A stretch of DNA of 54,607 nt, from positions 1 through 54,607 of the IMG/VR virus record IMGVR_UViG_3300042507_001934. One strand, 5' to 3'. Origin of the DNA: a virus. The notes beneath the pieces are model-generated. The model was given only the letters and a program-made list of their open reading frames with translations. It was not told where the DNA came from and did not search any database. Shown piece by piece: positions 6,809 to 51,390 of the stretch. How positions within the stretch are numbered: position 1 is the stretch's first letter; each line of letters starts with the position of its first letter. The translations under genes were made by a program, and so were the position numbers.

Positions 6809-9121
6809 TTACACCACTGTCCAAACTCCACCACTTGGAACTGTGACAACAACTCCAGATGCAATTGTTATAGGGCCAAAACTACCAGCGTTTTGTGATG
6901 CTGGAATTGTGTAAGATGTATTTACTGTTTGTCCATTCAAAAAGAAAATTGCATCAGTTCCTGCTCCAGTAGCCCCGCCTCCACCGATTCCTGTTGCCCC
7001 CGTAAGTCCTGTTGCTCCAGTCGCCCCTATACCAGTAGCCCCTTGGATGCCTTGAGGGCCAGTGCTGCCAGTTGAGCCTTGAATTCCTTGAATGCCTTGA
7101 ACGCCCTGCAAGCCTGTTGAACCTGTCAAACCTTGGATACCTTGAATTCCTGTCGCACCTGTGCTCCCTTGGATGCCTTGTATACCTTGGATACCAGTTG
7201 ATCCCGTAGCACCTTGGATGCCTTGTATGCCAGTAGCTCCAGTGCTTCCTTGAATACCTTGAATTCCTTGTATACCTGTAGCTCCGGTAGAACCTGTTAA
7301 ACCTTGAATTCCAGTTGAACCTGTTGATCCTTGGATACCTTGAACGCCCGTTGCACCTGTGCTTCCTTGAACTCCAGTTGCCCCAGTAAGACCAGAAGTA
7401 ACAATTGCAAAAATAAGTTGTTGGTTGTTTGCGAATTGAGATGTTCCACCAGATGTAACAAGTGATACTGGAATTGAGATATAACTATTAAGAACAACAG
7501 TTGGAGTAGCGGTAATTATCCAAGTCTGGAAATTGCTTGAGTTTCCTTGATCTTGAATGATGAAGGTGTCTCCAGTTTTGAAAAGCGGAAAGAAAACATC
7601 AATGTCATTTCCAAGAGCATCAATGTGAGAAAGTGTTACAATCGTAGATGCTGTTTGCGTTGCGTTATTCCAATACAATGTTTGAACTGTAGGAACTCCA
7701 GACAATGTAACTGCATCAGCTTTGTAATTGTAAAAAGATGAAGATTGTCCAGCAGCACCAGTTGCGCCAGTTAAACCAGTTGCACCTGTAGCTCCTAATC
7801 CCGTAGCTCCAGCAAGACCAGTTGCTCCAACATTTCCTGTAACACCTGTGGCTCCTGTAGTTCCAGTTGCACCTTGACCTCCTGTAACGCCCGTTGAGCC
7901 CGTTGAACCATCTAATCCAGCAACGCCTGTAGCTCCTGCTACACCTTGAATACCTTGAAGTCCCGTAGCACCCGTTGATCCTTGTCCACCTGTAAGTCCA
8001 GTAGAACCAGTTGCTCCAACATTGCCTTGGATACCTTGAATTCCTTGGACTCCTTGAGGGCCAGTAGCTCCAATTAATCCCTGTAATCCTGTTGATCCAA
8101 TTGTGCCGATACCTGTTGCCCCAGTGCTGCCTTGCAGTCCAGTTGCGCCATTAAGCATGGCAGTTGTTTGGATTGTTCCATCTCCAAATTTAACGCCAGT
8201 AGAATCAACGGACAATGCAACTGTTGCGTCAGGAGTTACGCCAACACCGACTCGTCCAGTATTAGAAACCACAAATGCCGTGGCATCAGGAGTTGTGTCA
8301 TCCTCAACTCGCAATGCCTCCCCTGTTCCTCGTTGTGTAACTCGCAATGCTGGAACTGTGCTTAAAGGTGAAGTTTGAATTGTTTGATTTGCACTAAAAG
8401 AATTTGCAAGATTAGATGCAGCAGCAGAGATTGTTGTTGATGCTGTCCTCCATTTAAGCAAGTTGTCGGCAGTTGAAATCCAAGTATCTCCGGTTACAGG
8501 AGATATTGGGTTTACTCCGTTTCCGATATTCAATCCAGCTTCTGTTGTTGTTGACGCTGGTAAATTTAGTTTTCCAGTCATCGTATCACCAGACTTCAAC
8601 ACATACGCTGAAAGGTCTGCCGTTGGCCCAGTAGCACCTGTGGCTCCAATTCCACTTGCTCCCATTGGGCCAGTTAAACCTGTGGCTCCGCGAGGGCCAA
8701 CCATTCCGGTTGCTCCAGACGAACCTATAAATCCTTGTTGACCAGTTGCTCCTGTTGCACCAGAAGCCCCAATTCCTGTTGAGCCTTGTAAACCTGTAGC
8801 ACCTTGTTGACCTTGAATCCCCGTGCTTCCAGTGGCTCCGCGCAAACCTGTAGCTCCAGTAGTGCCGTTAATTCCAGAGATGCCTGTAGCACCCGTTGCC
8901 CCTTCGCCTGTAGCTCCCGTTGCCCCTGTCGGCCCTCCCGATGGGCCAGTCGATCCAGTTAATCCCGTTGCACCTGTAGCTCCAACTCCAGTAGCTCCTG
9001 TAGCTCCGCTCGCTCCAATGGATTGCTGTGCAAGACAAGCAGATTGAGCCGCGCTGATGGCACTCTCTTTTGCTGACCTTGCATAAGATGCAACTATAAT
9101 AGTTTCATTACAATTTCCCAT
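6809..9121 (-). CDS. Large collagen-like tail fibre, 770 aa
   Basis: A 770-aa fibre with three collagen-like Gly-X-Thr/Gln blocks (about residues 35-170, 325-450 and 585-715), separated by a 'SGDTMTGKL' linker domain with a phage repeat ([46 protein letters not shown]) and by a globular domain ([21 protein letters not shown] onward). The C-terminal tip ends SGGVWTVV. It is a probable host-recognition fibre. The linker domain is duplicated in the 776-aa fibre and the tip in the 209-aa fibre. A palindrome sits 6 nt before the ATG. Confidence 0.85.
8153..8350 (-). repeat. Duplicated fibre-linker module, copy A
   Basis: About 200 bp encoding the [16 protein letters not shown] to [12 protein letters not shown] domain. 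It closely matches 11918-12118 in the other large fibre, with mostly synonymous or conservative differences. Confidence 0.8.
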
Positions 9122-10237: not shown

Positions 10238-12568
10238 TTAATACTTTAATGTATAGGCATAATTAACTGAATTTGAATTAGCACTGAATCCAATAGCTTC
10301 TACAGTCCAATCTAATGTTGGAGATACACTTGAAGAAGTTGAACTAATACATATTGCACTTACTGCTACATCTGAAATGTCTGATGGCTGAGGAGTGTTT
10401 GAAGCACCAGAAACAGAATTAAATTGGACATGGGGTATGTCTGTATAAATGTCGTGCGGGTCTCTTAAAAATGATGTTTGTTGATTAGATTGTAAATTTC
10501 CAATTAAACTTGAAGTAGTCACTTCTTCTGTTACTGTTCCAGATGTTCCTGTTACTGCAACTCCATTATAAACAAATACACATCCAATAGTTGCTGTTTC
10601 AGCACCTATAGCAACCCAGTTCACACTTCCAACTGAAAGAATTGTATATGTTCTACCAGAAACTAATTGTCCCGGTGTAAAAGCATTTAAAGTTACTAAT
10701 GTTTGTTGAACTATTTTTGGCGAATCAACTGCACAAATTAAATATCTAAATCCTCCAGCTAATGTTTGTGAACTTACTGTTGATGATCCATACATAGTTG
10801 GGTGTAGCCCAATCGCATAATCAAATCTATTTGTAAATGGAATTGGACTTGTTGGAGGATTTTGCACATTATAGGTAAATATATTAAAAAATATTTGTCC
10901 TTGAGTAATAATTCTATTTTTAGTAGTTATTACTGCCCATACAGTTTGTAAATGTTTCTTTAAAATTTTTGGAGATGGGTCTGTTGTAAATGGCAATGAG
11001 TTATTATAATAAGGATTATAACAAAACCATGAAACTTTTGTAGATACTCCTGTTGTTCCAACTTGTTTAAAATTTCTCCAACCATTTTGTGTTCCACCTG
11101 TTATTGGTAATGCAGAACCAGAATCTGGAATCCAAGAAGACGGAGAGCCAACACCATTTAAACCAGTATAAAAAACTGTAGAGGATATTTGTCCATTTAA
11201 TGTTGGAACAATTTGTAATCTATTTTGTATTCCCAAACTTATATCAGCGGATGGGCCAGTTGCACCTTGAACTCCAGTAGCACCTTGAGGCCCAAGTTGG
11301 TTATACATCACTTGCATTACTGTGATGATGACAGATGGAATATTAGGTGCTGGTGCAACTGCTGTATTGTGGTCGATACCAATATTAGTATTGTCAGTTG
11401 ACCACATGATCTGAAAATTGTCTCCAGCAGCAAAGTTATCCATGAAGTCCCATGCAGCTACCGAATATGGAGTATTTGTTGGGACAGCAATTCTTGTTGC
11501 AGAATCTGGAATATCAGTTCCATTTTTGCGGAACCAAATCTGAACAGTGTTTCCCCCACCCCCACCACCATTGTTATGCAATTGAGCGGAGAATTGGATG
11601 TCGTATGTTCCCGGACTTGTAAATGTAACTTGCGATCCGCTAACTACTGAAATGCCATTTTGTCCAATGACATTATTTACTGTCATTGCATATGCAGTAT
11701 TAATAGCGACGGCAGTTTGATCTACATTGCTAAAATACGATCCGTAAAATCCAGAAGCTCCACCAGCACCAGTTAAACCAGTTGCCCCCTGTAAGCCTGT
11801 AGCTCCAGTTGCGCCCGTAGCTCCATCAACACCAGTAATTCCTGTAGATCCGGTTGCGCCTGTAAGACCCGTTGCGCCTGTGACTCCGGTTGCCCCAGTC
11901 GCCCCTGTTGCCCCAGCAAGCATGGCGGTTGTTTGGATTGTTCCATCACCAAATTTGATTCCAGTTGTATCTACCGAAAGAGCAACGCTTGCATCAGGCG
12001 TAACACCAACACCAACCCGACCGGAATTACTAACAACGAATGCCGTTGCATCAGGAGTTGTATCATCCTCAACTCTCAGTGCTTCGCCTGTTCCCCTTTG
12101 TGTAACTCGTATAGCAGCAATTGAGGCAGTAGTGTCAATTATTTGATTGTTATTAAATGTATTTGCAAGATTTGTAGCTGCTGAATTATATGAAACCCCG
12201 CCTGATCTCCAAGCAAATCTATTGCCACCTGTAATCCATAAATCTCCATTTGCTGTGGTTGCTGGACTTGTTCCCGTAATAGCATTTCCAATATTAAGTT
12301 TAGAAGCGGTATCGTCAGCGGCGGCAGTCAATTTGCCTGTCATTGTATCGCCTGACTTCTGAACGAATGCGGAAGTATCTACTGCTGGCCCAGTTGCGCC
12401 AGTTGAACCTTGCGTTCCTACTCCAGTTGCCCCAGTGCTTCCTGTAGCACCTGTAGCACCAGTTGGCCCACCACTTGGCCCAGTTGCTCCTGTTGCGCCG
12501 ATAGCTGCAGTGGCTTGACTTCCAGTAAAATCAAGTTTACCAGTAAAAGGATTAAATGTAAGTGCCAT
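10238..12568 (-). CDS. Large collagen-like tail fibre, 776 aa
   Basis: The N-terminus [17 protein letters not shown] is a widespread phage fibre start. Then come a Gly-X-Thr block, a SGDTMTGKL linker with the duplicated [16 protein letters not shown] domain, a second collagen-like block (about residues 225-290), a C1q/TNF-like beta domain ([38 protein letters not shown]) and a long C-terminal region. The latter includes a [18 protein letters not shown] module like that in the 668-aa tail protein. Probable receptor-binding fibre. The distal third is more AT-rich than the shaft, which suggests exchange of the tip. Confidence 0.8.
11918..12118 (-). repeat. Duplicated fibre-linker module, copy B
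   Basis: Counterpart of 8153-8350: the same protein domain, with roughly four in five bases shared by eye. Confidence 0.8.
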
Positions 12569-13853: not shown

Positions 13854-15263
13854 TTAGGAAGGCACAACGATGTCGCCCACACCAGCGCAGCTATAGCAGT
13901 CCTGAGTGTTGTCAGGAATGATGTAGCTCTGCACAGGGCAGCAGGAACCATAGAGGCTCTTGCTTTGTGGCAGGCGATGCAGGAACGAGTGCATGATGGT
14001 TGGGTCTTTGACCTGTGCAGCGAGACGGAACTGAGCTTGATAGAAGCCCGTTTTGCGCCAGCGGTTGCACTCCCAATCTGGGTTCTTCCATTCCCAATCA
14101 CCAGCGTAGTTCTGGGTCATTTGTTGGGCTTGGCCGTATCCAGTCGAGGATGGCATTGTCCACTTGCACATTGCTTTGTTCACCATAGCAACCGAGATAC
14201 CGAAGTCGGCATTGCGGTAGGCTTTGTTAGGAACATAGGAGCATCCGTTCTCTTGGACGATCTTGATGTAACGAGGCACACGAACGAGACGCGCCCATGT
14301 CGCAGGATCAGCTTCGTTGAACGGAGCGAGACCAGCGTTGAAGGCCGTGTCAGCGTTGAAGCGAGCAGCGTTGATGTCGTAGCCGAAGGCATAGTCACCG
14401 ATGATGCGGTTGATGCCGAGTTTCAGACGGGTCAAACGCTCGTCGAAGTCGGTGTTAGCATCCCAGTAACCATTGTTGCGTTTGGCTTGGAAGTAAAGCG
14501 CACGGCCAACTTGAGGATCGGGGATAACGATGTCGAGCAAAGGCTGACCAGTCGCATCTTGGAGATCAAGACGGAAAGCGTCATCTTCGTCTTGGAGGTC
14601 AACGAGAGCATCGTCGAGCATATCAAGCGAGAGATAAGCAATCTTGTTGAGGTCGGCGGGAGCCATCTTAACGCGAAGAGCGCAGAGGTCATAGCCAGCT
14701 TCGTTGTTGAGCGTATGCTCTGGAACGAACCATGCTTGATCGTCAACGAGGCCGCAGTAAGTGCCGTCATCAGTAGTGATGCCCATCCACTTGTGGCCGG
14801 AACCACCGATGTAGTTAGAACGAAGGAACTCTTCGTGGACATTCTTGGTGATACGGGCATTCGACTCTTCAAACTGGAGAATCTCTTCAGCGGGGAAGAG
14901 GCGATAGAGAAGGCTCTCAACGCAAATCCAGTCAGTGGTCATCTCTTTACGCAGAAGCTCGAAAGTATAGCTCTCAGTGCCGGGGCGTTGGATGACTTCG
15001 GGTTTGCTATCGCAAGAATCAGTCTCGCAGTAGGTGTCGGTGATCGAACGGAAAGGAGTGCAAGGATCGTGGAATCCACGGCCAAAGCGGAATGCTTTTT
15101 GTTCGGTTGTGTGGTTAAGAGGCCATGCTTGCTCCTCGAAACGGGTGAAGTATGCAGAGTTCGTGACGAGCTTCTTCACATAGAGGTCGTTGAAATATTC
15201 GCGGCCCTCGCGGAAGAAACTGTCAATCTCGGCACAACTATTGAAGTAGAGTTGATCGCTCAT
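13854..15263 (-). CDS. Major capsid protein
   Basis: A 469-aa protein, the most capsid-like in the window by position (portal, scaffold, then this) and by composition. It has a long N-terminal helix-rich arm, then FRFGRGFHDPCTPFRSITDTY, EMTTDWICVESLLYRLFPAEE, and a C-terminal half with PRYIKIVQENGCSYVPNKAYRNA. Eight or more cysteines is unusual for a capsid protein. It is flanked by a terminator-promoter segment upstream and a 12-bp hairpin downstream, as expected for a gene made in excess. The opposite strand is open for 433 codons; this is treated as a shadow. Confidence 0.85.
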   Translation of the reverse strand: MSDQLYFNSCAEIDSFFREGREYFNDLYVKKLVTNSAYFTRFEEQAWPLNHTTEQKAFRFGRGFHDPCTPFRSITDTYCETDSCDSKPEVIQRPGTESYTFELLRKEMTTDWICVESLLYRLFPAEEILQFEESNARITKNVHEEFLRSNYIGGSGHKWMGITTDDGTYCGLVDDQAWFVPEHTLNNEAGYDLCALRVKMAPADLNKIAYLSLDMLDDALVDLQDEDDAFRLDLQDATGQPLLDIVIPDPQVGRALYFQAKRNNGYWDANTDFDERLTRLKLGINRIIGDYAFGYDINAARFNADTAFNAGLAPFNEADPATWARLVRVPRYIKIVQENGCSYVPNKAYRNADFGISVAMVNKAMCKWTMPSSTGYGQAQQMTQNYAGDWEWKNPDWECNRWRKTGFYQAQFRLAAQVKDPTIMHSFLHRLPQSKSLYGSCCPVQSYIIPDNTQDCYSCAGVGDIVVPS

Positions 15264-15282
15264 TGATTTATTTGATTTTGGT

Positions 15283-25799: not shown

Positions 25800-26738
25800 A
25801 TGAATGAGCTACACTTATTTGCTGGAGCAGGGGGAGGAATCCTCGGCGGGATGCTTCTCGGACATACCACAGTCTGTGCTGTCGAACTTGAACCTTACTG
25901 CCGAAAAGTCTTACTCCAAAGACAACGAGACGGCATCCTGCCAAAGTTCCCAATCTGGGATGATGTCACCACATTCGATGGAACTCCGTGGAGAGGAAAA
26001 GTCGATGTCGTCTGCGGAGGATTCCCTTGCCAAGACATATCAGCAGCAGGCAAAGGAGCCGGGATCACAGGAGAGCGAAGCGGACTCTGGGGAGAGATGG
26101 CCAGAATCATTGGCGAAATACGACCTAAATACGCATTCGTGGAGAACTCACCAATGCTTACTCTTCGAGGACTTGACCGAGTGCTTGGCGATCTTTCCGA
26201 GATGGGGTATGATGCACGATGGGGAGTTGTGGGAGCTTACCATGTCGGCGCACCTCACAGAAGAGAACGAATCTGGATTACAGCCAGACGGGATAAATTT
26301 CTTTCATACTCCCAACACAACTGGACTGGATGGGGGCAGCAACAGCAGGAAAGCGTTGAAGAAAAGACAGGAGATGATATGGCCAACTCCACGCAGTTGT
26401 TCAGCAATGGCGGCAACGATAACTCCAGAGTCGGCCTGGAACGAGAATCGTTTTCCAAACTTGGAAACAATTGTGGGGCAAAGAATGTGGCCAACCCCAT
26501 GTGCAAGCGACAATCGGGACAGGGGTCATGTTGGTATGCCAGCGATCCAGCGGAGAAAAGAGAAGGGGAAACAGATAGGGCTTGGTCAGAGCGTGTCGGA
26601 CACATCTGGGGCATTGAATCCAGATTGGGTCGAGTGGCTGATGGGGTGGCCAATCGGGTGGACAGACTTAAAGCCATTGGAAACGGGCAAGTTTCAATCG
26701 TGGCAGCAACAGCATGGAGAATACTTGGAGGAGAATAA
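25800..26738 (+). CDS. DNA (cytosine-5) methyltransferase
   Basis: A 312-aa C5 methyltransferase that would methylate cytosine in an unknown target, probably to protect phage DNA from restriction. Motif I FAGAGG at residues 7-12, catalytic motif IV GGFPCQDIS near 72-80, motif VI VENSP near 113, motif VIII HRRERIWI near 151, motif X AIGNGQVS near 292. The target-recognition region between motifs VIII and X is short. AGAAAGA lies before the ATG. The second full-length frame (25804-26742) runs through the entire gene, and both frames look functional. Confidence 0.9.
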   Translation: MNELHLFAGAGGGILGGMLLGHTTVCAVELEPYCRKVLLQRQRDGILPKFPIWDDVTTFDGTPWRGKVDVVCGGFPCQDISAAGKGAGITGERSGLWGEMARIIGEIRPKYAFVENSPMLTLRGLDRVLGDLSEMGYDARWGVVGAYHVGAPHRRERIWITARRDKFLSYSQHNWTGWGQQQQESVEEKTGDDMANSTQLFSNGGNDNSRVGLERESFSKLGNNCGAKNVANPMCKRQSGQGSCWYASDPAEKREGETDRAWSERVGHIWGIESRLGRVADGVANRVDRLKAIGNGQVSIVAATAWRILGGE

Positions 26739-26742
26739 ATGA
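25804..26742 (+). CDS. Overlapping second-frame protein at the methyltransferase locus
   Basis: A 312-aa open frame, +1 relative to the methyltransferase, starting 4 nt after it and ending 4 nt after it (TGA sharing ATGA with the helicase start). The protein has family-like features: SLAKTYQQQAKEPG and WPESLAKYDLNTHSWRTHQC near residues 75-115, RWGMMHDGELWE near 135-146, two WPTP motifs near 193 and 229, and LNPDWVEWLMGWPIGWTDLK near 271-290. I know this motif set from phage proteins found with cytosine methyltransferases; their function is unknown to me. No stop in 312 codons with motif retention argues for real coding. Confidence 0.65.
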   Translation: MSYTYLLEQGEESSAGCFSDIPQSVLSNLNLTAEKSYSKDNETASCQSSQSGMMSPHSMELRGEEKSMSSAEDSLAKTYQQQAKEPGSQESEADSGERWPESLAKYDLNTHSWRTHQCLLFEDLTECLAIFPRWGMMHDGELWELTMSAHLTEENESGLQPDGINFFHTPNTTGLDGGSNSRKALKKRQEMIWPTPRSCSAMAATITPESAWNENRFPNLETIVGQRMWPTPCASDNRDRGHVGMPAIQRRKEKGKQIGLGQSVSDTSGALNPDWVEWLMGWPIGWTDLKPLETGKFQSWQQQHGEYLEENK

Positions 26743-27971
26743 AAAAAGTCCCAATAGCACGAAAGAGTGAAGCGGCAGCATTGTCGCTGATAGCAATCGA
26801 CAGAAACATACTTTCCCAACAAACATGGGATAGTGGTTATTTCGCCATAAACGCCAACAGGATCGTTTTTGAAGCTCTCCAAGGGGTTCACCAGCGGACA
26901 GGTGTTTGCTGCCCGTTCTCCGCCATCGCAGAACTGGAAGCGACAGGAAAGTTAGATGCGGCGGGTGGTGAAGAATCTGTCCATGACACATTACGCACGA
27001 TGAACGTAGCGTCTGGTAAGGTTTGCCAAGACATGGCAGACGATTATCGGAAACATCTTCACCGCACTAAAGCCTACCGAGATGTTCTTACTCTCATGGA
27101 GAAGGAAGAAGTAAACCTCCGCGCAGGCAAAGCGGATTTGAAAGGATTATCGGAAACGATAATGAACTTGGCCGAGGATCGGACAACAAAAGTAAAACCA
27201 GTCAAAGACCTCATCATCGAAATCATTGATGAGATGGAAGGTAAAGCTGTAAAGGAATTCTTTCCTACTGGATTGCTGAAAGTAGATCGTGCGCTCAAAG
27301 GTGGAATGCACAAAGGCGAGATGATGACAGTAGCATCAGAGACTGGTGGTGGAAAATCCATCTACCTTGTCCAAGCTGCACTCGCCAACCTGCAAGATGG
27401 AAAGTCAGTTCTGTTCTTCAGCCTTGAAATGAAAGCAAAGGACATCCTAACTCGTATGGCTTGCAACTTGGCAGGGTATCCGGTGCGTGAACCAGAGGAT
27501 TACAAAAACGCCAACCAACACGAACTCCTAAAAATCAACTCCGCATTGTTGCAATTACACCAGTTACCCCTCGAAATCGTGGATGGAGTAGCCGAAATTG
27601 ACGAGATTGAGGCCCAAATCAACCGATACGTTGGAGAAAAACGGGCAGATGTAATTGTTGTAGATTACCTCCAAATCATCTCATCTGACGGGGAAGAAGG
27701 CAGAGAAAGCCAGATTTCGGAGATTGCAAGGAGATTAAAACTCGCAGCACTGAAGAATAACTCGATTATGCTTACTGCTTCCCAACTAAACGACGAAGGA
27801 AGACTACGCGAATCACGGGCTATTGGAATGCACTCTGACCAAGTAGTGTATATCGAACACATCAAAGAGAAGAGCAGGCTGACGATCAAAAAGAACCGCC
27901 GAGGTGCGAGGAACTACATGACAGAAATCGTCATGCGTGGTGACATCTCAAAACTTGAGGAGGTATACTAA
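26739..27971 (+). CDS. dnaB: DnaB-like replicative helicase
   Basis: A 410-aa hexameric helicase expected to unwind phage DNA at the fork. The N-terminal helical domain (EAAALSLIAIDRNILSQQTW) resembles the DnaB primase-interacting domain. The RecA core has Walker A ASETGGGKS near residues 198-206, LFFSLEMKAKDILTRM near 228, Walker B VIVVDYLQII near 305, and arginine-finger-type KNRRG near 388. Its ATG overlaps the second-frame stop. No primase or polymerase gene follows, so host enzymes are probably recruited. A palindrome lies inside (27148-27161). Confidence 0.9.
   Translation: MKKVPIARKSEAAALSLIAIDRNILSQQTWDSGYFAINANRIVFEALQGVHQRTGVCCPFSAIAELEATGKLDAAGGEESVHDTLRTMNVASGKVCQDMADDYRKHLHRTKAYRDVLTLMEKEEVNLRAGKADLKGLSETIMNLAEDRTTKVKPVKDLIIEIIDEMEGKAVKEFFPTGLLKVDRALKGGMHKGEMMTVASETGGGKSIYLVQAALANLQDGKSVLFFSLEMKAKDILTRMACNLAGYPVREPEDYKNANQHELLKINSALLQLHQLPLEIVDGVAEIDEIEAQINRYVGEKRADVIVVDYLQIISSDGEEGRESQISEIARRLKLAALKNNSIMLTASQLNDEGRLRESRAIGMHSDQVVYIEHIKEKSRLTIKKNRRGARNYMTEIVMRGDISKLEEVY
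27148..27161 (+). promoter_or_regulatory. Dispersed palindrome, site 12
   Basis: Perfect copy, sense spacer GAAA, inside the helicase gene in the second codon phase (encodes S-E-T-I). A degenerate half copy lies about 100 nt upstream, near 27045. Confidence 0.7.
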
Positions 27972-31347: not shown

Positions 31348-31598
31348 CGTGTCCTAAATGTGATTCACCTACTGAAGTCATCAATAGTAGAAAGAGAGAT
31401 GGCACAGTGGTAAGGAGGAGGCTTTGTGCCTGCGGAGAAAGGTTCTCGACCAAAGAAGTAATTACTACTTCAAGGAAAGTTACCTTCAATAAAGTAGTTA
31501 AAGCACTATCCATGACTAAAGCAGTCACTGGAGAGTGGACAGTAAAAGTAGATGAGAACACGCCTGAATGGGCAAAGAAAATGCTAATCAACCTATGA
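31344..31598 (+). CDS. NrdR-like zinc-ribbon protein, 84 aa
   Basis: An 84-aa protein with an N-terminal zinc ribbon very like that of NrdR: MTCPKCDSPTEVINSRKRDG, then RRRLCACGERFSTKE (C3, C6, C28, C30). The rest lacks the ATP-cone of NrdR, so it is not a complete ribonucleotide reductase repressor. It may bind DNA. ATGA overlaps at both ends. Confidence 0.7.
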   Translation: MTCPKCDSPTEVINSRKRDGTVVRRRLCACGERFSTKEVITTSRKVTFNKVVKALSMTKAVTGEWTVKVDENTPEWAKKMLINL

Positions 31599-32728
31599 GT
31601 ATCGTTAACGATAAATTCACCTTCCATGTCCTTGGACTTCCGCACACAGTTTCTTCCAAGGAATTCAACGCCTGTGCCTACACCCAAAAGGTAGTTAAGT
31701 TCGGCAAGATGATGACCGAACGTGGACATACAGTAATCCATTACGGCCATGAGGACTCTGATCTAATCTGCACAGAACACGTTCCAGTCCTAACCAACCA
31801 TGACTTCAAGAAGAGTTACGGATCACATGATTGGCGTAAGACATTCTTTAAGTTCGATACCAACGATCATGCCTACCAAACATTCTACAAGAATGCTATT
31901 AAAGAGATCGGGCAGAGGAAGAACAAGCATGACTTTATTCTACCATTCTGGGGTAGTGGTGTTCGTCCAATCTGTGACGCGCATCCAGACCTAATCACAG
32001 TTGAGCCGGGCATTGGATATGCGGGTGGACATTGGGCAAGGTGGAAAGTATGGGAATCCTACGCAATCTACCATGCCTACTGCGGGCTACAGAATGTAGG
32101 AAACTGCAATCAAGACTGGTATGACGTGGTAATCCCAAACTACTTCGATGTAGAGGATTTTGACTTCAACCCCAAGAAAGAAGATTACTTTCTCTATCTT
32201 GGACGAGTATATAGCGGAAAAGGAGTAGATGTAGCTATCCAAGCCACTCAAAAAGCAGGCGTAAAATTGGTAATCGCAGGACAAAAAGAGGAAGGTTATC
32301 AATTACCAAGCCATGTTGAGTATGTCGGATATGCCGACGTGCCTACCAGAAAGAGGTTAATGGCAAATGCTAAAGCATCCTTCCTTCCATCTATGTATGT
32401 AGAACCATTCGGTGGAGTTCAGATAGAAAACCTACTTTCTGGCACTCCTACTATAACTACAGACTGGGGAAGTTTTACAGAAAACAACATCCACGGGGTA
32501 ACTGGATACCGCTGCCGAACGATGGGTGACTTCGTAGATGCAGTCAAAAACATAGATAGGATCAACCCATACGACTGCCGCGCATTCGGAGAAAACTTTA
32601 CACTGCAAGCCATAGCTCCAATGTATGAGAAATACTTCTCAGATGTCATGGATGTCTACACGGGAGCAGGATGGTATGCCGAGGGAAATGGAATCAACGC
32701 AATGAAAAGATTCTATCCTTCACTATGA
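31595..32728 (+). CDS. Glycosyltransferase, GT-B fold (family 4-like)
   Basis: A 377-aa GT-B enzyme. The C-terminal nucleotide-sugar domain has YFLYLGRVYSGKGVDVAIQA near residue 197, the E-x7-E motif EPFGGVQIE near 269-277, then SGTPTITTDWGS. It could modify phage DNA, virion proteins or the host envelope. Start 31595 overlaps the previous stop (ATGA), and its first codons are palindrome site 13. The following methyltransferase and deaminase are coupled to it. Confidence 0.8.
   Translation: MSIVNDKFTFHVLGLPHTVSSKEFNACAYTQKVVKFGKMMTERGHTVIHYGHEDSDLICTEHVPVLTNHDFKKSYGSHDWRKTFFKFDTNDHAYQTFYKNAIKEIGQRKNKHDFILPFWGSGVRPICDAHPDLITVEPGIGYAGGHWARWKVWESYAIYHAYCGLQNVGNCNQDWYDVVIPNYFDVEDFDFNPKKEDYFLYLGRVYSGKGVDVAIQATQKAGVKLVIAGQKEEGYQLPSHVEYVGYADVPTRKRLMANAKASFLPSMYVEPFGGVQIENLLSGTPTITTDWGSFTENNIHGVTGYRCRTMGDFVDAVKNIDRINPYDCRAFGENFTLQAIAPMYEKYFSDVMDVYTGAGWYAEGNGINAMKRFYPSL
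31600..31613 (+). promoter_or_regulatory. Dispersed palindrome, site 13
   Basis: Perfect copy TATCG-TTAA-CGATA overlapping codons 2-7 of the glycosyltransferase (S-I-V-N-D-K). Confidence 0.8.
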
Positions 32729-43998: not shown

Positions 43999-44026
43999 AA
44001 TCTACATCAGCCTCTGCGGGTGTCAA
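43999..44026 (-). promoter_or_regulatory. Promoter upstream of the late terminator
   Basis: Minus strand TTGACA, 16 nt, TAGATT: the same elements and spacing as 43872-43845. The -35 overlaps the stop of the giant gene. Confidence 0.55.
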
Positions 44027-47000
44027 GGTTTTTTTGTAGCTACCCTAACCTTGTTCTCCGCGATGTCCCTTGCACGATTACCGATTCGCTCAACAACCTT
44101 GCTGTAAGCCTCCGGTTTCATCGCAGAAAGTTTCTCGTAATTCTTCTTCATGGACTTCGTGAGAACCGCGCCATATTCTTTCACGAACATCTCGTATTCT
44201 TTGTTGGTCGGGTCTCTGTCGAGCCTTTGTGCAAGCTGATTCCGGGTCGGAATGCTTGGCCCACCACCCTTACTCAAGACTAACTCATGGAGCATGATTG
44301 ATTCTCTGTCAGTCGGGATGTCATAGACAATCGGAACTCCGAGCTTAAACATTTTGCTTGCGAAGTCAGTTGAAAGCGCAGGTTCACCAAAAGCATTCAA
44401 AGATTTCGGTGCTACGGCAGGCCCGATGAATGGGATGTTTGACCATACCGCACCATCCAGAGTGCGTCTATCAATCGGGTCGTTGATGAAGTTTGAAATG
44501 TTACTTGCAAGGCTTGTTCCCAATACTGGAATCAGAGTCTTTGCGGGGAAGGTCAACCCTTTGGCAACGCCCTCTACACCGATGTCTCCGTATGTTCCGA
44601 AGAGTGATTTTGTAGTGAAAGCATATGGCCCGCGACGAAGTGCTGCGTCGAATACAAACCCAGCTACAATGCTCGCGTCTTCCAATTGAGTTCCAGTCTT
44701 TGCATCTCGCTTTTGTTTCTTGCGAATCTCCAAATCATCCAACGCACCAAGCGTCATGGCGGGCCAAGTAAATGCCTCAAATCCTCTCATCATGTTCAAG
44801 TCAAATTTAGACTTCCCGAAATACACGCTCATGGTGTTTGGCTTGTTGCCTGCTTTATACCAAGAGTCGTAGAACTGAGGATCGTCGCTTCTCTTCGGGC
44901 CGTTACCAGTAAATACTATCTTGAACTCATCTTCCTCTGGCTCGTCGGTTGAACCAGCGCGGAGGGACGCAAGAGCGATCAATGCTACAGTGCCAGCAAT
45001 GGCTTCGTTTAGCCTTTGGCTATACTGAACATCAGTTCCGAGTGACTGAGCGTAAGGAGATGTTTTATTCATCTTTTTTGCCAACCAATCATATCCAAAG
45101 CGCACGAATCCGTATGGCGAGAACCAAGCTGTTTCACGAATCACGCGAGCAGGGACGATGGCATATCCATAGATTATTCGGCTGAACAATTTCAAAATCT
45201 GGCTTTCAGTTTGATTGGACGCGCTTGCCATTGACTCCAGCAACCACAAGGCAGGCATCGAAGCAACGCCAGCGTCTTTCAACTTGGTTGACTCGTCTTT
45301 CAAAGAGTCAAGTGACTGCCTATTCCTACCAACTGAGGACAACGCATCGTTGATCGCGGCATCCATTGCTTGCTTAATATCACTCTTCTCTACCCCCGCT
45401 TTAGTCAGAGCATTATTCCATGAAGAAATGTAGAACTCATCCGCGAGAATGCTTGCTTTGTTTTTATCGGTTCCGATAGCGATTTGCTCAAGGTAGAAAT
45501 CATTCTTAGCTTTCATCATCACCGCAAACATTTCGTTGCCTTCTTTGGTAGACATCCCTTGCCGTTTCATTACCGCCATCGAATACTTGCTGATGTTCTG
45601 ATTTTGAAGTGAGGCAATCGCTCCGTAATCGAGAGCATTCAACATACGACGAACATAGTCCATCATACCAACCATCATGTTCTTTACTCCGTCTGCTCGT
45701 TCTTTTGGGTTCTTACTCTTCGTGAATTGATCAACGCCCTTGCGATAAAGTCGAAGGAGATTGTCATCGTTCACAATGTAATCCACATTGGAATAGACTG
45801 TGACATTGTTTTTGAAAGAGAAGGCTACTGTATTCGCCCATGACTTGATTGAATCTACAAGGGCAGTAGCTGCATTAGTAATAGCCTTCGGATTACCTTT
45901 GAGTGTTCCTGATCCAATCTCAACGATAGCATTTCGCATAGCAAATGCGATTGGTGAGAATGCGTTCACAGTTAAGGTAGGAATACCGCTCAATGCTTGA
46001 GCATCGTAGTATTGCCCGATGACATCTCTTGCGCGGATGGGTAGCTTGGCTTTAGAAATTACATCTTGGATTGCTTTGTGCGCTTCAGCTTTTGTTGCAT
46101 CAGCCGACTCTGGATTAGAGAGGATAGCGTCATTCTTGAGTAGGACTTTGTATTGCTCTGGAGTAAACCCAGTCCATCCATTCAATGCCGCCATGTCACT
46201 CAATACATTCCTTGCTGGGTCTAATGCGCCAGCGCGGAGGGCTTGCAATACCTTTTGGAAGGCGCGGCGGCTTCTTGTATCTCCAGCTTTCCAAGGTGCA
46301 GTCTTACTGATAGCATCTGTGAATGCCTGCTCCTGCGCCATTGTGAAGCGTTTCTGGAGCGAGATGTCCATCAACTTCGCAATCCTTTCAGACTGGGCGA
46401 CATTTAATCCTGCCCTGCGGAGGTAGTCACGCATGACTTCGTATCTCCAGTTAGGATTCTGTTGCTCTTCCAGCGGAGTATCTTTGATTGCTTTAACAAT
46501 TTCCGAGATTGATCCTTTCTCAATCGCACGATCAATGGATTTGAGTTGGTTGTTTAGAGAGTTGATTTCAATCTGTCTTCCTACCACATCAGCAAGAATG
46601 TCTGCTGCTGTTTCTTCAACACCCAATCCCTTGAGTTCTTTCACAAATGACTTCTTGAAATTAGAAATGATTTCTCCGGATTGCTTCGGATCAAACATCT
46701 TATTCAGATTCAACTTCAAGGCATTTTTTACTGCATCACGGACGGGATTCATTTTCGCCTCGGATGGTAGCTTCACCTCAAATGATGGAGTGTCAGATTG
46801 AATCTTGGCAAGTTTACCTATTTCAGATTTTGCTTGGTTTTGTATTTTCTGCATCTGACTATCAACTTCATTTTGTTGAAGTTCTATCTTTTTTGACATC
46901 GAATTTACTTCGATCTGCCTTCCAACTACACTTGCAAGTATTGATGCAGAAGAATCTTTAACTCCAAGTTTAACAAGTTTTTCAATGAATGCAGGTTTCC

Positions 47001-50000
47001 ATTTTTGAACAAAATCATTTGCTTCACCAGCATCAAGTTTCAACGCATCTCGTATTGCTTTGCGTATTGTTTTTAATACAGATTCAACTTTTTGTTTTGC
47101 TGGTTTAGCTTCTACAAACCAAGAAATTGTGTCTGATTGAATTTTCGCAAATTCATCAATCTGTTTTTGCGCTTCGTTCTCTGCTTTCTCTGCTTGCAAA
47201 TCAACACTACCTTTAGCTTCTTTAGCTATCTTCGCTTTAGCTTTTGCCGCCGCTTCTTTAAGCAACCTTTCTTGAATCAATCCTTGAAGTTGGTTCTCTA
47301 AGTTTTCTTTTAAAAGGGTGTAATCAGCAGAACTTGGATAAACAAATTTAATTTTAGAAATCTTTTCAATGATTGCATTTATCAAACCATCTTGCTTGCT
47401 TATTGCATCGTTTGGATTTTCATCCATCATTTTCACAAGTTTGACGATGCTTGTATTTTCTTCTTTTAGTTCATTGAAGATAAGTCGGCGTAAAGTGGAT
47501 TCGCTTATTGGCATATCCAATTGCTGCGCCATTGCTTTATCCCATGCGTTTTCTATGCCATCATACTTAACATTGATAGCATCTTGCTCATCTGAATCCT
47601 CGGTATCATCCAGTTCTTTCTCCCTCTTCCGTTTGATTTCAGCCCTAATATTTTCATCAGCAAGTTTGATCTTGTCTTGTGAAAGTGGTTTCTCCCCAAG
47701 AATACTGGCAACCTGTTCGTAGATAGACATCTTGGTATTGGGTGGAGTCCCCTTTAATCCAAGAGATATAAGCATACTTTTAACGATGCTTCCAAGCTCT
47801 CGGTTTTGTGCTGCATCCAATTCTCCAAGTGAACCGGGTTTGTTTTCTTCGTTAGATAATGTTTTCCAGAATCCAGTTTCCAATCCAGTAGCCGCACCCT
47901 CAACCATCTTTTGACGATAGTTACTCAATCCTTCTTTTAGGATTTTCTTTACACCTTCAAATCGAGAACTCGCTCTTTTACTATATGGTAGGTATTTAGT
48001 TTCAATTGTTCCACCGCCAAGTTTTTGAAGTGCCAACATCGCCGCTACTATCGGGTCTTTAGCAGTAGATGTAGCTTGAGCAATCTCATCTTCAATCTTT
48101 GCTACCAAATCTGTGCCTGTCTTCTTGCCTACTTCATTAAGCTCATCAGTCAATTCTTCAGCAGTTGGTTCTTCAACTTTCTCTACCGCATCGTATCCGA
48201 TCTGGATAGAGTCAACTTGTTCTTTGGTTGGGTTCGGGCCGTAAACGAACTCAGCGGCGTAGTTAATGAAAGCATCCTGCTCGGCTTGCGCCATAGTAAG
48301 GAAGGTATCTTTCATCTCCCTTGCTGCTCGCAATGCCCTACCAGCATCACTTCGGCCTTCCGTTCCTGTTGGCAACCGATTGATGTTGGTCATCATTATG
48401 CCAAGCATCATCTTCTGCCCTTCCGCTGCCAGCCTTACAGCATACTCAAAGAGGTCATTGACGAACAATGCAGCTCCCATGCTTACTTCAGAAGCCGCGC
48501 CAGTATCTTCTACAATCGCAGCAATATCATTGAGTTCATCAGCAAAATCCCTTCTTTCTTGCTTATTGCCAGTCAGCTTTCCAAGCGCACGGAATGCTTC
48601 AATCGTATTCTGTTCGGTTACTTTGGTAGGATCAAATACTCTTTCACGAAGTAATGCCTTGGTTTTAGCTATGATGTTTTTTGGTGTGTCTTTCAACTCA
48701 CCAATCTCTTCGCCCATTATTTTTTTACGGGCTGCTGATGGGGTTTCTGTTACAGGTTCGGTTGGCTTCTCTGGTGTAGGCGTTGGTTGTTCTGGAGCAG
48801 GTTGTGCTGGCTTTTCTACGGATTTAGCTTTTTCCCCTATCTTACCCTTACCAACATTGACCGCACCAGTCTCACCCTTCTTAGGAAGATACCCCATCAG
48901 TTCATTCAACTTCGCTGGCGCACCACTCACCGCTTGCCATACTTCCCCAAGAAATTCTCTGACCGCATCACCGAATCTTTGGATCATCTGTTTAGCCCAA
49001 GCACCAAACTCCATGCCAGCCTCGTAGATGTTCTGTCCTGCTTGGATGAAGTCTTCTTTGGTAGGGATTAGAACGCCGCCTTTTTGTCCGATTTTTGGTT
49101 TGGTTATCGTTTCCGATACTGCGGGGGTGGTTGATATAATTTCTGGAGCAAGATTTGTTGGTATGAATATTTGATTTTGATTCCAATTTGAATCACTCAA
49201 CTTGCTGTAGTCGTCCCAACTTACATTAAGAAGTTTAAGTGATGCCTTATCAAGTTCTGCATTTCTTTGTTCCTTGGTAGCCTTTCCTTGCGGAATGTTT
49301 TTTTGTAAATTCTTTTCTGCAAGGTCGGTTATTTTTTGATATTGATCTTCCCTCCATCCCCTTACAATAATTGCATCGTAATCTTTATTATCAATTCTTT
49401 GTTTAATTGCATCATATCCATATTTTCTCAATGTTTCGGGAGTAATTAGAATAGGATTTTTAGGATTTACTTTTATTTTATTTTTATAATTTCCAAGTTT
49501 ATAAATATAAGACCAATATAATTCATCGCTTGGCTCCATCGCATAGAATCCATTATCAAAAACATTATCAAATGATTCAGATAAATCTGCTTCCTTTTTA
49601 AGCTCCATCGGGGCTTTTGAATAATGCGTTGCTTCAATCCCTTTGTTTTTAATATCAGAAATTTGTTGTTCTTCTGATATATTTTCAAACTGAACTGGCT
49701 GAATAATATTTTTTTCTGGAGCTATTTGCTTAAACAAATTTTCGGCACGCGCTTTTACTTCGCTTGAAATATTTGGTCGTGTAGCAATTTCCCATACGAC
49801 ATATTCTCCTTTTTTATTTTTACTTTTTTCTGGATCAATTTTATCAAGAACACTATTTAATGTTGCATTATCATCTGTAGATTGTGATACAGTAAGTAAA
49901 AACTCATCTGGATACATTGAGTAAAAACTTTTTTCTGGTAGCGATCCTTCAACTGCTGCCTTATATGTTTCTTCCCAATTTTGAGGGGGTGTAAAATCGC

Positions 50001-51390
50001 CTTTAACCTTTGGCGCAGGCGCAACCTCTACTGGTGGCGTGACTACTTGTTCTACTGGTGCGGCCTGCGTAGGTTGAACTGTCAAGGATTGCTTGACAGT
50101 TGGCTCTGCGGGTGCGGTAATCGTTTTTGCTAACGCTGCCTGCTGTTCTTCTATCGTGGTTATCGTTTCCGATAATCCAAACTTGGCAGCTTCAGTTTTA
50201 AGTGTAGCCAACTTCTTTTGGTCTGCCGCGATGTCCAGTCTCAAGCTACTCGCTTCTGGTGAAGTAGATTCAAGTGCATCCAAGTCTTGTCGTTTGTTAT
50301 CAATGCCCCGCTCCAGCCTTGTGATCTCTGTAGAGAGTGCTTGCGCTGCTGGATTATCAGATTCCAAGTCGCGCATCCTGCGGTTAGCTTCCTTTTCAAT
50401 ATCGGTAAGAGCCTTCTGTTCTGGACTCGCAGCTTCGATAGCACCCGCCGCGCCACCGACAACGCCTCCAGCAACGATTCCGGTTGTAGCACTTTCAATC
50501 GCACCTTGAAATGTCGGGACATTAAATCCTTCTCTCTGTAGTGCTATGTTAGGAGCAATCGCTTCTTGTGCGCTTTGGACACCTTCAATTGGGGATTCTG
50601 TGCCAATACCTTTCAAGATACCTTTGATAATATCTTCACCTACATCCTTACCTTGTTTGGAAAGAACGCGAGTCAAAATAGCTTCAGCACCCGTAGATGC
50701 GGCGAGAGCGTTCAGTCCACCGCTGAGAAGAAGTTGATCCAAGTTTTTGCCATTATACGCTTGCGCCCGTGAAGCGATAGGCTCAATCTGATCTTCTGGG
50801 ACACCTTGCTCACGAAGATAGTCTTTAGTGCCTTGGTAGATATTCCCCTTACCCATACCTACGCCTTGGGCAAATCCAGTTCCAATAGTAAGACCAACCT
50901 GCGCGGCTTTAGACAACTGCGCGGCTTTGCCTGCCACACCAAATACTAATTGGGGAACCATATACCCCAAAGTATTTGCAGTCATCTCTGCTGGTGCAGA
51001 TGCAAACGCTTCAAATCCCGCCGCAACTTTATCTAAGAATCCACCATCTTTAGCCTTCTGTAGAAGCTCTGATACTCGCTTGGAATCTTTCTTTGATTCA
51101 GCAGAGAGTATGCTATCCATGTAGTCCTCATAACCAGCGATGGATTTGGATACTTCATTATCCGCGCCAAACAAATCCGTGTATCCCCTCACCGCACTAC
51201 CTACACCCTTGGCAAACTGAATAGGTATATCAGCAGCTTGGCGCAAGAATCCAGATGACTCTGGTTCTATATTTTTATTTATTGATGGATCGTATTGATC
51301 TAAAAATGATGTTGTGCTGGATGCAGGTTCTTGACTTACGCTCCTTTTATTAGAAGGATCGTATTGATTTAGAAAATCTTCTGCTGTCAT
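44023..51390 (-). CDS. Giant internal/ejection protein, 2455 aa, with ADP-ribosyltransferase-like domain
   Basis: The largest gene. N-terminal repeats (FLNQYDPSNK; FLDQYDPSIN), then hydrophobic helices (AGGVVGGAAGAIEAA), an ART-like domain near residues 587-676 (HYSKAPMELKK; GFYAMEPSDELYW; ILITPETLRKYGYDA), a segment FGAWAKQMIQRFGDAV near 800, a Pro-rich linker, about 1000 residues of helices and coiled coil, and a hydrophobic end near 2130. It follows two smaller gp14/gp15-like genes, so it fits a T7 gp16-like injected core protein with added enzymatic cargo. Three palindromes lie within. Confidence 0.7.
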   Translation of the reverse strand: MTAEDFLNQYDPSNKRSVSQEPASSTTSFLDQYDPSINKNIEPESSGFLRQAADIPIQFAKGVGSAVRGYTDLFGADNEVSKSIAGYEDYMDSILSAESKKDSKRVSELLQKAKDGGFLDKVAAGFEAFASAPAEMTANTLGYMVPQLVFGVAGKAAQLSKAAQVGLTIGTGFAQGVGMGKGNIYQGTKDYLREQGVPEDQIEPIASRAQAYNGKNLDQLLLSGGLNALAASTGAEAILTRVLSKQGKDVGEDIIKGILKGIGTESPIEGVQSAQEAIAPNIALQREGFNVPTFQGAIESATTGIVAGGVVGGAAGAIEAASPEQKALTDIEKEANRRMRDLESDNPAAQALSTEITRLERGIDNKRQDLDALESTSPEASSLRLDIAADQKKLATLKTEAAKFGLSETITTIEEQQAALAKTITAPAEPTVKQSLTVQPTQAAPVEQVVTPPVEVAPAPKVKGDFTPPQNWEETYKAAVEGSLPEKSFYSMYPDEFLLTVSQSTDDNATLNSVLDKIDPEKSKNKKGEYVVWEIATRPNISSEVKARAENLFKQIAPEKNIIQPVQFENISEEQQISDIKNKGIEATHYSKAPMELKKEADLSESFDNVFDNGFYAMEPSDELYWSYIYKLGNYKNKIKVNPKNPILITPETLRKYGYDAIKQRIDNKDYDAIIVRGWREDQYQKITDLAEKNLQKNIPQGKATKEQRNAELDKASLKLLNVSWDDYSKLSDSNWNQNQIFIPTNLAPEIISTTPAVSETITKPKIGQKGGVLIPTKEDFIQAGQNIYEAGMEFGAWAKQMIQRFGDAVREFLGEVWQAVSGAPAKLNELMGYLPKKGETGAVNVGKGKIGEKAKSVEKPAQPAPEQPTPTPEKPTEPVTETPSAARKKIMGEEIGELKDTPKNIIAKTKALLRERVFDPTKVTEQNTIEAFRALGKLTGNKQERRDFADELNDIAAIVEDTGAASEVSMGAALFVNDLFEYAVRLAAEGQKMMLGIMMTNINRLPTGTEGRSDAGRALRAAREMKDTFLTMAQAEQDAFINYAAEFVYGPNPTKEQVDSIQIGYDAVEKVEEPTAEELTDELNEVGKKTGTDLVAKIEDEIAQATSTAKDPIVAAMLALQKLGGGTIETKYLPYSKRASSRFEGVKKILKEGLSNYRQKMVEGAATGLETGFWKTLSNEENKPGSLGELDAAQNRELGSIVKSMLISLGLKGTPPNTKMSIYEQVASILGEKPLSQDKIKLADENIRAEIKRKREKELDDTEDSDEQDAINVKYDGIENAWDKAMAQQLDMPISESTLRRLIFNELKEENTSIVKLVKMMDENPNDAISKQDGLINAIIEKISKIKFVYPSSADYTLLKENLENQLQGLIQERLLKEAAAKAKAKIAKEAKGSVDLQAEKAENEAQKQIDEFAKIQSDTISWFVEAKPAKQKVESVLKTIRKAIRDALKLDAGEANDFVQKWKPAFIEKLVKLGVKDSSASILASVVGRQIEVNSMSKKIELQQNEVDSQMQKIQNQAKSEIGKLAKIQSDTPSFEVKLPSEAKMNPVRDAVKNALKLNLNKMFDPKQSGEIISNFKKSFVKELKGLGVEETAADILADVVGRQIEINSLNNQLKSIDRAIEKGSISEIVKAIKDTPLEEQQNPNWRYEVMRDYLRRAGLNVAQSERIAKLMDISLQKRFTMAQEQAFTDAISKTAPWKAGDTRSRRAFQKVLQALRAGALDPARNVLSDMAALNGWTGFTPEQYKVLLKNDAILSNPESADATKAEAHKAIQDVISKAKLPIRARDVIGQYYDAQALSGIPTLTVNAFSPIAFAMRNAIVEIGSGTLKGNPKAITNAATALVDSIKSWANTVAFSFKNNVTVYSNVDYIVNDDNLLRLYRKGVDQFTKSKNPKERADGVKNMMVGMMDYVRRMLNALDYGAIASLQNQNISKYSMAVMKRQGMSTKEGNEMFAVMMKAKNDFYLEQIAIGTDKNKASILADEFYISSWNNALTKAGVEKSDIKQAMDAAINDALSSVGRNRQSLDSLKDESTKLKDAGVASMPALWLLESMASASNQTESQILKLFSRIIYGYAIVPARVIRETAWFSPYGFVRFGYDWLAKKMNKTSPYAQSLGTDVQYSQRLNEAIAGTVALIALASLRAGSTDEPEEDEFKIVFTGNGPKRSDDPQFYDSWYKAGNKPNTMSVYFGKSKFDLNMMRGFEAFTWPAMTLGALDDLEIRKKQKRDAKTGTQLEDASIVAGFVFDAALRRGPYAFTTKSLFGTYGDIGVEGVAKGLTFPAKTLIPVLGTSLASNISNFINDPIDRRTLDGAVWSNIPFIGPAVAPKSLNAFGEPALSTDFASKMFKLGVPIVYDIPTDRESIMLHELVLSKGGGPSIPTRNQLAQRLDRDPTNKEYEMFVKEYGAVLTKSMKKNYEKLSAMKPEAYSKVVERIGNRARDIAENKVRVATKKP
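45465..45478 (-). promoter_or_regulatory. Dispersed palindrome, site 19
   Basis: Perfect copy, sense spacer GAAC, in the giant gene, encoding I-G-T-D. Confidence 0.7.
49105..49118 (-). promoter_or_regulatory. Dispersed palindrome, site 20
   Basis: Perfect copy, sense spacer GAAA, in the giant gene, second codon phase (S-E-T-I). Confidence 0.7.
50161..50174 (-). promoter_or_regulatory. Dispersed palindrome, site 21
   Basis: Perfect copy, sense spacer GAAA, in the giant gene, second codon phase (S-E-T-I). Confidence 0.7.

Follow-up and report, generated by a model that had tools for sequence, protein, structure and literature searches.

The window analysed here is the complete IMG/VR virus record IMGVR_UViG_3300042507_001934 (54,607 nt). 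Between positions 25800 and 26742 it includes two open reading frames of 312 codons each that overlap almost completely, and both are selected as coding sequence. The locus is best read, with a probability of roughly 0.8, as encoding both subunits of one orphan phage two-subunit C5 cytosine methyltransferase of the M.EcoHK31I kind, which would be likely to form a heterodimer. The product of frame 1 is referred to as alpha and that of frame 2, which lies in the +1 register, as beta. The features of the locus are as follows.

25800..26738, + strand, 312 aa: frame 1, putative alpha (large) subunit with motifs I-VIII and X, the catalytic half of a C5 cytosine methyltransferase
25804..26742, + strand, 312 aa: frame 2 (+1), putative beta (small) subunit with the WPTP region and motif-IX-like block
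25800..25806, + strand: ATGAATG, staggered double start read from the sequence (alpha ATG at 25800, beta ATG at 25804)
26016..26042, + strand: alpha motif IV GGFPCQDIS with the catalytic Cys
26089..26226, + strand: beta conserved block GERWPESLAKYD...FPRWGMMHDGE, above the alpha motif VI-VIII region
26136..26150, + strand: alpha motif VI FVENS
26259..26279, + strand: alpha motif VIII RRERIWI
26380..26397, + strand: beta WPTP motif 1
26488..26511, + strand: beta WPTP motif 2
26614..26670, + strand: beta motif-IX-like block LNPDWVEWLMGWPIGWTDL
26670..26693, + strand: alpha motif X KAIGNGQV in frame 1, exactly where the beta motif-IX block stops
26736..26742, + strand: TAAATGA, with the alpha stop TAA (26736-26738), the dnaB ATG (26739) and the beta stop TGA (26740-26742) within 7 nt
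26739..27971, + strand: adjoining downstream gene for a DnaB-like helicase (PF03796, E=2e-30)

A first-pass annotation had proposed two genes in overlapping frames at this methyltransferase locus, and the ORF coordinates, the stop statistics and the homologues described below bear this out. It had placed the frame-2 start 4 nt after that of frame 1 and the stop, after 312 open codons, 4 nt beyond, as the coordinates confirm. The motifs it had quoted from frame 2 (two WPTP motifs, RWGMMHDGE and LNPDWVEWLMGWPIGWTDL) are all found, and TAAATGA shows the frame-2 stop overlapping the dnaB start as it had described. The conservation of both encoded proteins, also claimed there, is backed by the many homologues found, by the stop statistics and by substitution rates counted in both frames.

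Frame 1 had further been taken for a full C5 methyltransferase. This did not hold, because its match to PF00145 (E=1.2e-32) covers profile positions 3-182 of 324 and motif IX is absent, and because each of the two products seems to supply one half of a single enzyme, a reading that goes beyond the first-pass annotation. Frame 1 also matches phrog_363 (E=1.6e-70), and its match to M.HhaI is confined to residues 4-165. The core motifs I, IV (PCQ), VI and VIII are present as LFAGAGGG, GGFPCQDIS, FVENS and RRERIWI, and motif X (GNxV) was recognised, by pattern alone, as KAIGNGQV. Regular-expression searches found motif X in frame 1 of 239 of 261 relatives. Motif IX, which a one-chain enzyme holds in the same chain, was missing as a pattern from frame 1 in the window and in 236 of 237 overlapping loci. 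The pattern LNPxWVEWLMGxP occurred in frame 2 only in 221/261 relatives, in frame 1 only in 1/261 and in neither frame in 39/261.

The frame-2 product matched phrog_1008 (E=2.6e-28); it gave no match in Pfam and NCBIfam and none in a PDB sequence search. AlphaFold models were poor, with a pLDDT of 35 from the single sequence and a mean pLDDT of 57.6 from a 91-row alignment. The latter fold had no match in the PDB. In BFVD its best match was a phage protein labelled SAM-dependent methyltransferase (E=5.9e-8), on which nothing is built because confidence in the model is too low. Phrog_1008 in turn matches Firecracker gp5 (E=1.1e-58) and Stasia gp75 (E=1.7e-77), both of which continue into motif X, as well as a nested 'Mte8-like' protein of Kagunavirus. 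The profile columns that correspond to the conserved beta block at 26089..26226 match Firecracker gp5 (hhalign E=1.2e-17). Phrog_1008 also matches the C-terminus of the single-chain protein gp58 of Gordonia phage Gudmit (E=3.6e-49), the N-terminus of which matches the alpha family phrog_363.

Gudmit gp58 unites catalytic motifs, PTP motifs, RLSAAFAEWMMMLPAGW and motif X in one chain, and its RLSAAFAEWMMMLPAGW aligns to the canonical motif IX RLTTRMTARIQGFPDDW, directly before motif X. In the window, beta ends in the motif-IX-like block also quoted as LNPDWVEWLMGWP, which occupies the place of motif IX in C5 methyltransferases. A direct hhalign comparison of beta with one-chain methyltransferases aligned the motif-IX block only (25 columns, probability 15%), and that of A3 with Gudmit was likewise weak (probability 2.7%). 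Since direct profile comparison is thus short and weak, the assignment rests on position, on phrog_1008 and on the complementarity between loci described below. Beside the single-chain methylase of Gudmit (L187, 1273-2007) there is an open +1-frame ORF with beta-like motifs and no motif IX, perhaps a leftover of an overlapping state. Phrog_1008 carries the label DNA methyltransferase, but what it matched here was the frame-2 product or homologues of it, mostly lacking catalytic motifs; the label probably stems from co-annotation with the overlapping gene.

That frame 2 is a coding sequence is close to certain. A first round of 172 loci comprised 80 IMG/VR loci obtained via frame 2, 80 obtained via frame 1, phage loci and the window's own. 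Both products lie in the same +1 register in 172/172 of them, including those sampled via frame 1 alone, and one frame is interrupted by a stop in a few (e.g. L044, L101 and L049). The protein search with frame 2 that the first-pass annotation had called for returned, by tblastn, 80 phage records in addition to the phrog_1008 match. If frame 2 were no gene, its openness and apparent conservation would merely follow from frame 1. In favour of this, synonymous-codon shuffles of the window's frame 1 introduced only about four stops into frame 2 (mean 4.1). However, no more than 15/5000 of these shuffles left frame 2 open, so its openness exceeds chance. Among 50 de-duplicated relatives ascertained by frame 1 only, the first half of frame 2 had 0 stops where 111.6 were expected, and the second half had 16 where 120.3 were expected; some of these 16 may simply mark where frame 2 normally stops. 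Homologues thus lack the frequent frame-2 stops that had been named in advance as evidence against a gene. The +2 frame of the same 50 relatives showed no such deficit (305 vs 253 and 376 vs 353).

Substitution rates point the same way. Among independent pairs of relatives, positions 1/2/3 of frame-1 codons took 35/20/45% of the changes as compared with 23/15/62% in flanking genes, and the ratio of changes at position 1 to those at position 3 was 0.84 as compared with 0.33 (p=1.6e-9). The frame-specific dN/dS analysis that had been suggested was carried out as a two-frame count at >85% identity. It gave for frame 2 an NN/NS of 0.34 (0.27-0.42) and an SN/SS of 0.15 (0.08-0.21), far under the values of 0.78 (0.64-0.95) and 0.63 (0.49-0.96), respectively, in the flanking genes. 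The frame-2 HMM score was 258 bits, and shuffles in which only the frame-1 protein was kept reproduced 125 bits; hence about half of the frame-2 conservation is forced, which a non-coding frame 2 would lead one to expect, and half is not. The observed score exceeded that of every shuffle in 64/65 loci. Conservation merely to the extent that frame 1 dictates, the other outcome said beforehand to count against a second gene, is therefore not what is seen. Chance or forced conservation was rejected by the stop, substitution and profile tests, and a frame 2 that is no gene has next to no probability left.

The two frames differ in where they are constrained. NN/NS of frame 2 was 0.58 in the 5' half and 0.26 in the 3' half, and NN/SN of frame 1 was 0.14 and 0.52, respectively, frame 2 being under stronger constraint than frame 1 in the 3' half. 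By decile, the stricter frame is frame 1 in the catalytic half and frame 2 across most of the 3' half. Constraint on frame 1 is loose between motifs VIII and X, and over this stretch frame 2 includes the WPTP motifs and the LNPxWVEWLMGxP block. The first half of beta is also under constraint of its own (NN/NS 0.58 vs 0.91 in controls).

The motif-IX-like block of beta is absent from alpha, and across homologues the two traits complement each other. When two bacterial classes were sampled with frame 1 as query (274 and 198 genomes), 40 distinct loci were obtained. An overlapping beta without motif IX in frame 1 was present in 19, both in 2, motif IX without beta in 15 and neither in 4; L289 is without either. 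The association is significant (Fisher p=1.4e-5) over these 40 loci, of which those without beta are also the more distant. From this complementarity it follows that frame 2 supplies what frame 1 lacks. A stand-alone beta without alpha was not found in 80 genome loci obtained with a frame-2 profile.

We infer translation from both starts, heterodimer formation, methylation and protection from restriction. Ribosomes would initiate at either of the two ATGs (25800 and 25804), probably via one shared ribosome-binding site, and both subunits may be produced from one mRNA since the two staggered starts stand behind one leader. The beta ATG is retained where the alpha start codon 4 nt upstream is ATG, GTG, TTG or even TTA, and ATGAATGAG at the start is common to many relatives. 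Alpha would provide the large domain that binds SAM and carries out catalysis (motifs I-VIII and X). The small domain, to which motif IX belongs together with probably the greater part of the target-recognition region, would come from beta. Alpha and beta would then assemble into the active methyltransferase, the most likely substrate of which is the phage's own DNA, methylated against host restriction. Among ten neighbouring proteins there was no Pfam match above cut-off to a restriction-enzyme family and one weak PDDEXK match, so an orphan, protective methyltransferase is likely. In the clade of the window beta reaches along the whole gene, and the best reading of this is a small subunit that has been extended over the full length.

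C5 methyltransferases split over two subunits in this way have been known since 1995, although the kind is obscure. Lee et al. are said to have reported in that year that the small subunit of M.EcoHK31I is read from a different frame within the large-subunit gene, and on this point the window agrees. The window also shares with M.EcoHK31I a large chain that holds motifs I-VIII and X, with motif IX only in the small chain (PMC3404938). Both polypeptides of M.EcoHK31I (YGGCCR, from E. coli; Lee, Kam and Shaw 1995) were required for methylation in vitro, according to the title under which PMC3404938 cites that work. The assignment to this kind is by motif layout and description. In the window the small-subunit frame runs the length of the gene and starts 4 nt after that of the large subunit, whereas in M.EcoHK31I it is a small internal ORF; moreover, the present enzyme belongs to a phage, and no restriction enzyme is seen alongside. 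The predicted recognition domain of EcoHK31I has been placed in the large subunit (PMC3404938), whereas here selection and the WPTP region suggest the small subunit. New with respect to the EcoHK31I kind are the full-length overlap, the phage setting and the breadth.

M.AquI (CYCGRG) is another two-subunit C5 enzyme, with catalytic motifs I-VIII in one polypeptide and motif IX in the other (PMC3404938). The same split is seen in the window; however, M.AquI beta also holds motif X, which the window has in frame 1. Members of the AquI-like arrangement were found in Firecracker gp6/gp5 and Stasia gp76/gp75, in which IX and X are both in the small subunit. The Mte8-like ORFs of Kagunavirus (K1ind2 ORF28 and fTaEco01 TE1_032) and the 'g55 internal gene' of Paenibacillus phage Shelly resemble frame 2 in being nested in a C5 methylase gene and in belonging to phrog_1008, but they are shorter, start internally and are annotated without a functional explanation. 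Active prophage m5C methyltransferases have been described in Paracoccus aminophilus (PMC3925955).

The ShiLan type likewise gives a second protein from another frame of a phage methylase gene. There the second protein is a homing element that has been inserted, bears HNH motifs and is patchily distributed, whereas frame 2 has no HNH family match, spans the methyltransferase itself and shows no insertion boundary; a homing element of this type was therefore rejected. In L160 (2912-3334) a third-frame ORF resembling HNH endonucleases lies between motifs IX and X of an overlapping pair. It is similar to the ShiLan insertion (PMC11855218), and motif X beyond it is read in the beta frame.

Two further readings accept frame 2 as coding. 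Overprinted genes of viruses have mostly been described as coding for accessory proteins, and frame 2 might accordingly encode an overprinted protein that acts on its own in an unrelated role, for instance as an inhibitor of host restriction or a regulator, rather than as a subunit. The lack of a Pfam domain in beta would suit this, as would its extension in the window clade over the whole gene, well beyond what motif IX needs, and the separate constraint on its first half. Such a protein would not be expected to be complementary to motif IX of frame 1, never to occur apart from the methyltransferase, or to share a chain with the catalytic half or with motif X, as its domain does in Gudmit, Firecracker and Stasia, and an independent role is considered unlikely.

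Programmed +1 frameshifting would instead join the catalytic half from frame 1 and the recognition half from frame 2 in one chain. It would account for the passage of constraint from frame 1 to frame 2 about midway and for the loci with the pieces in a single frame (L187, L207, L249, L250 and L266). However, frame 2 is open from its own conserved ATG across the first half, where no stop was found and a mid-gene shift needs no open frame; the shifted chain would miss motif X, which is kept in frame 1; and separate starts are annotated in the Firecracker, Stasia and Kagunavirus records. Frameshifting is thus very improbable.

The pair is widespread. When genomes, one for each species, were searched with a frame-2 profile, 80 loci were obtained, spread over many bacterial phyla and a single euryarchaeal MAG; this is not a census, since the pattern W[VTI]EW[LM]MG[WF] was required. 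In 75 of these beta overlaps the methyltransferase in the +1 frame, in 5 the pieces are shifted between frames and in 0 it stands alone. Frame 2 is open through motif I in 150/150 uncut IMG/VR loci and in 42/69 genome loci. An unrooted tree of the catalytic half (99 rows) divides at a branch with support 100/99, and every overlapping form except one falls on the same side of it. The exception, L315, is doubtful, with a weak frame-2 match and a canonical motif IX in frame 1. Because the root is not fixed, a single origin of the overlap is the simplest reading of the tree and not a proof. 'Full' and 'nested' forms interchange at least 10 times on it; hence the open stretch of beta has grown or shrunk repeatedly. 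A history is somewhat favoured in which an old and very widespread pair, with the halves of an enzyme overwritten in two frames, arose once in the sampled lineage and spread across phages and prophages of many phyla. The clade of the window would then have extended beta to near co-extension with staggered starts, the extended first half gaining a selected function of its own. In L031 (1677-2642) and L050 (1665-2639) the N-terminal part of the methyltransferase and the C-terminus of beta are in one ORF, which could be an indel fusion of the frames, a natural chimera or a sequencing error.

Annotation usually records one frame of the pair. Frame 1 alone is annotated in ABMM1 and Vibrio 1.091.O, frame 2 alone, as hypothetical, in phPA-G and Vibrio 1.291.O, and both in a few records (Shelly, with its 'g55 internal gene', K1ind2 and fTaEco01). 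The literature searched for the phage pair yielded no paper describing alpha and beta together. If the two-subunit reading is true, many entries for a 'DNA cytosine methyltransferase' or a 'hypothetical protein' would be two frames of one gene, of which gene callers keep only one, and phrog_1008, labelled as it is, would be the small-subunit family. Frame 1 annotated or recoded alone would then give an incomplete enzyme. Except in small viruses, long same-strand overlaps of two conserved proteins are considered rare; the one described here seems systematic among dsDNA phages and prophages. The family is a large natural data set on how two proteins under selection share one stretch of DNA, constraint passing from one subunit to the other along the gene.

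Elsewhere in the window, a glycosyltransferase group 1 gene (31568-32728) lies a few kb 3' of the dnaB-like gene. Two long ORFs of 469 and 433 aa face each other at 13854-15263 (- strand) and 13965-15266 (+ strand); that on the - strand had no match in PHROG, and a shadow ORF and an antisense overlap are both possible. By far the largest ORF is 44023-51390 (- strand, 2455 aa), and those at 6809-9121 and 10238-12568 (both - strand) are tail fibre proteins with matches to collagen-like PHROGs.
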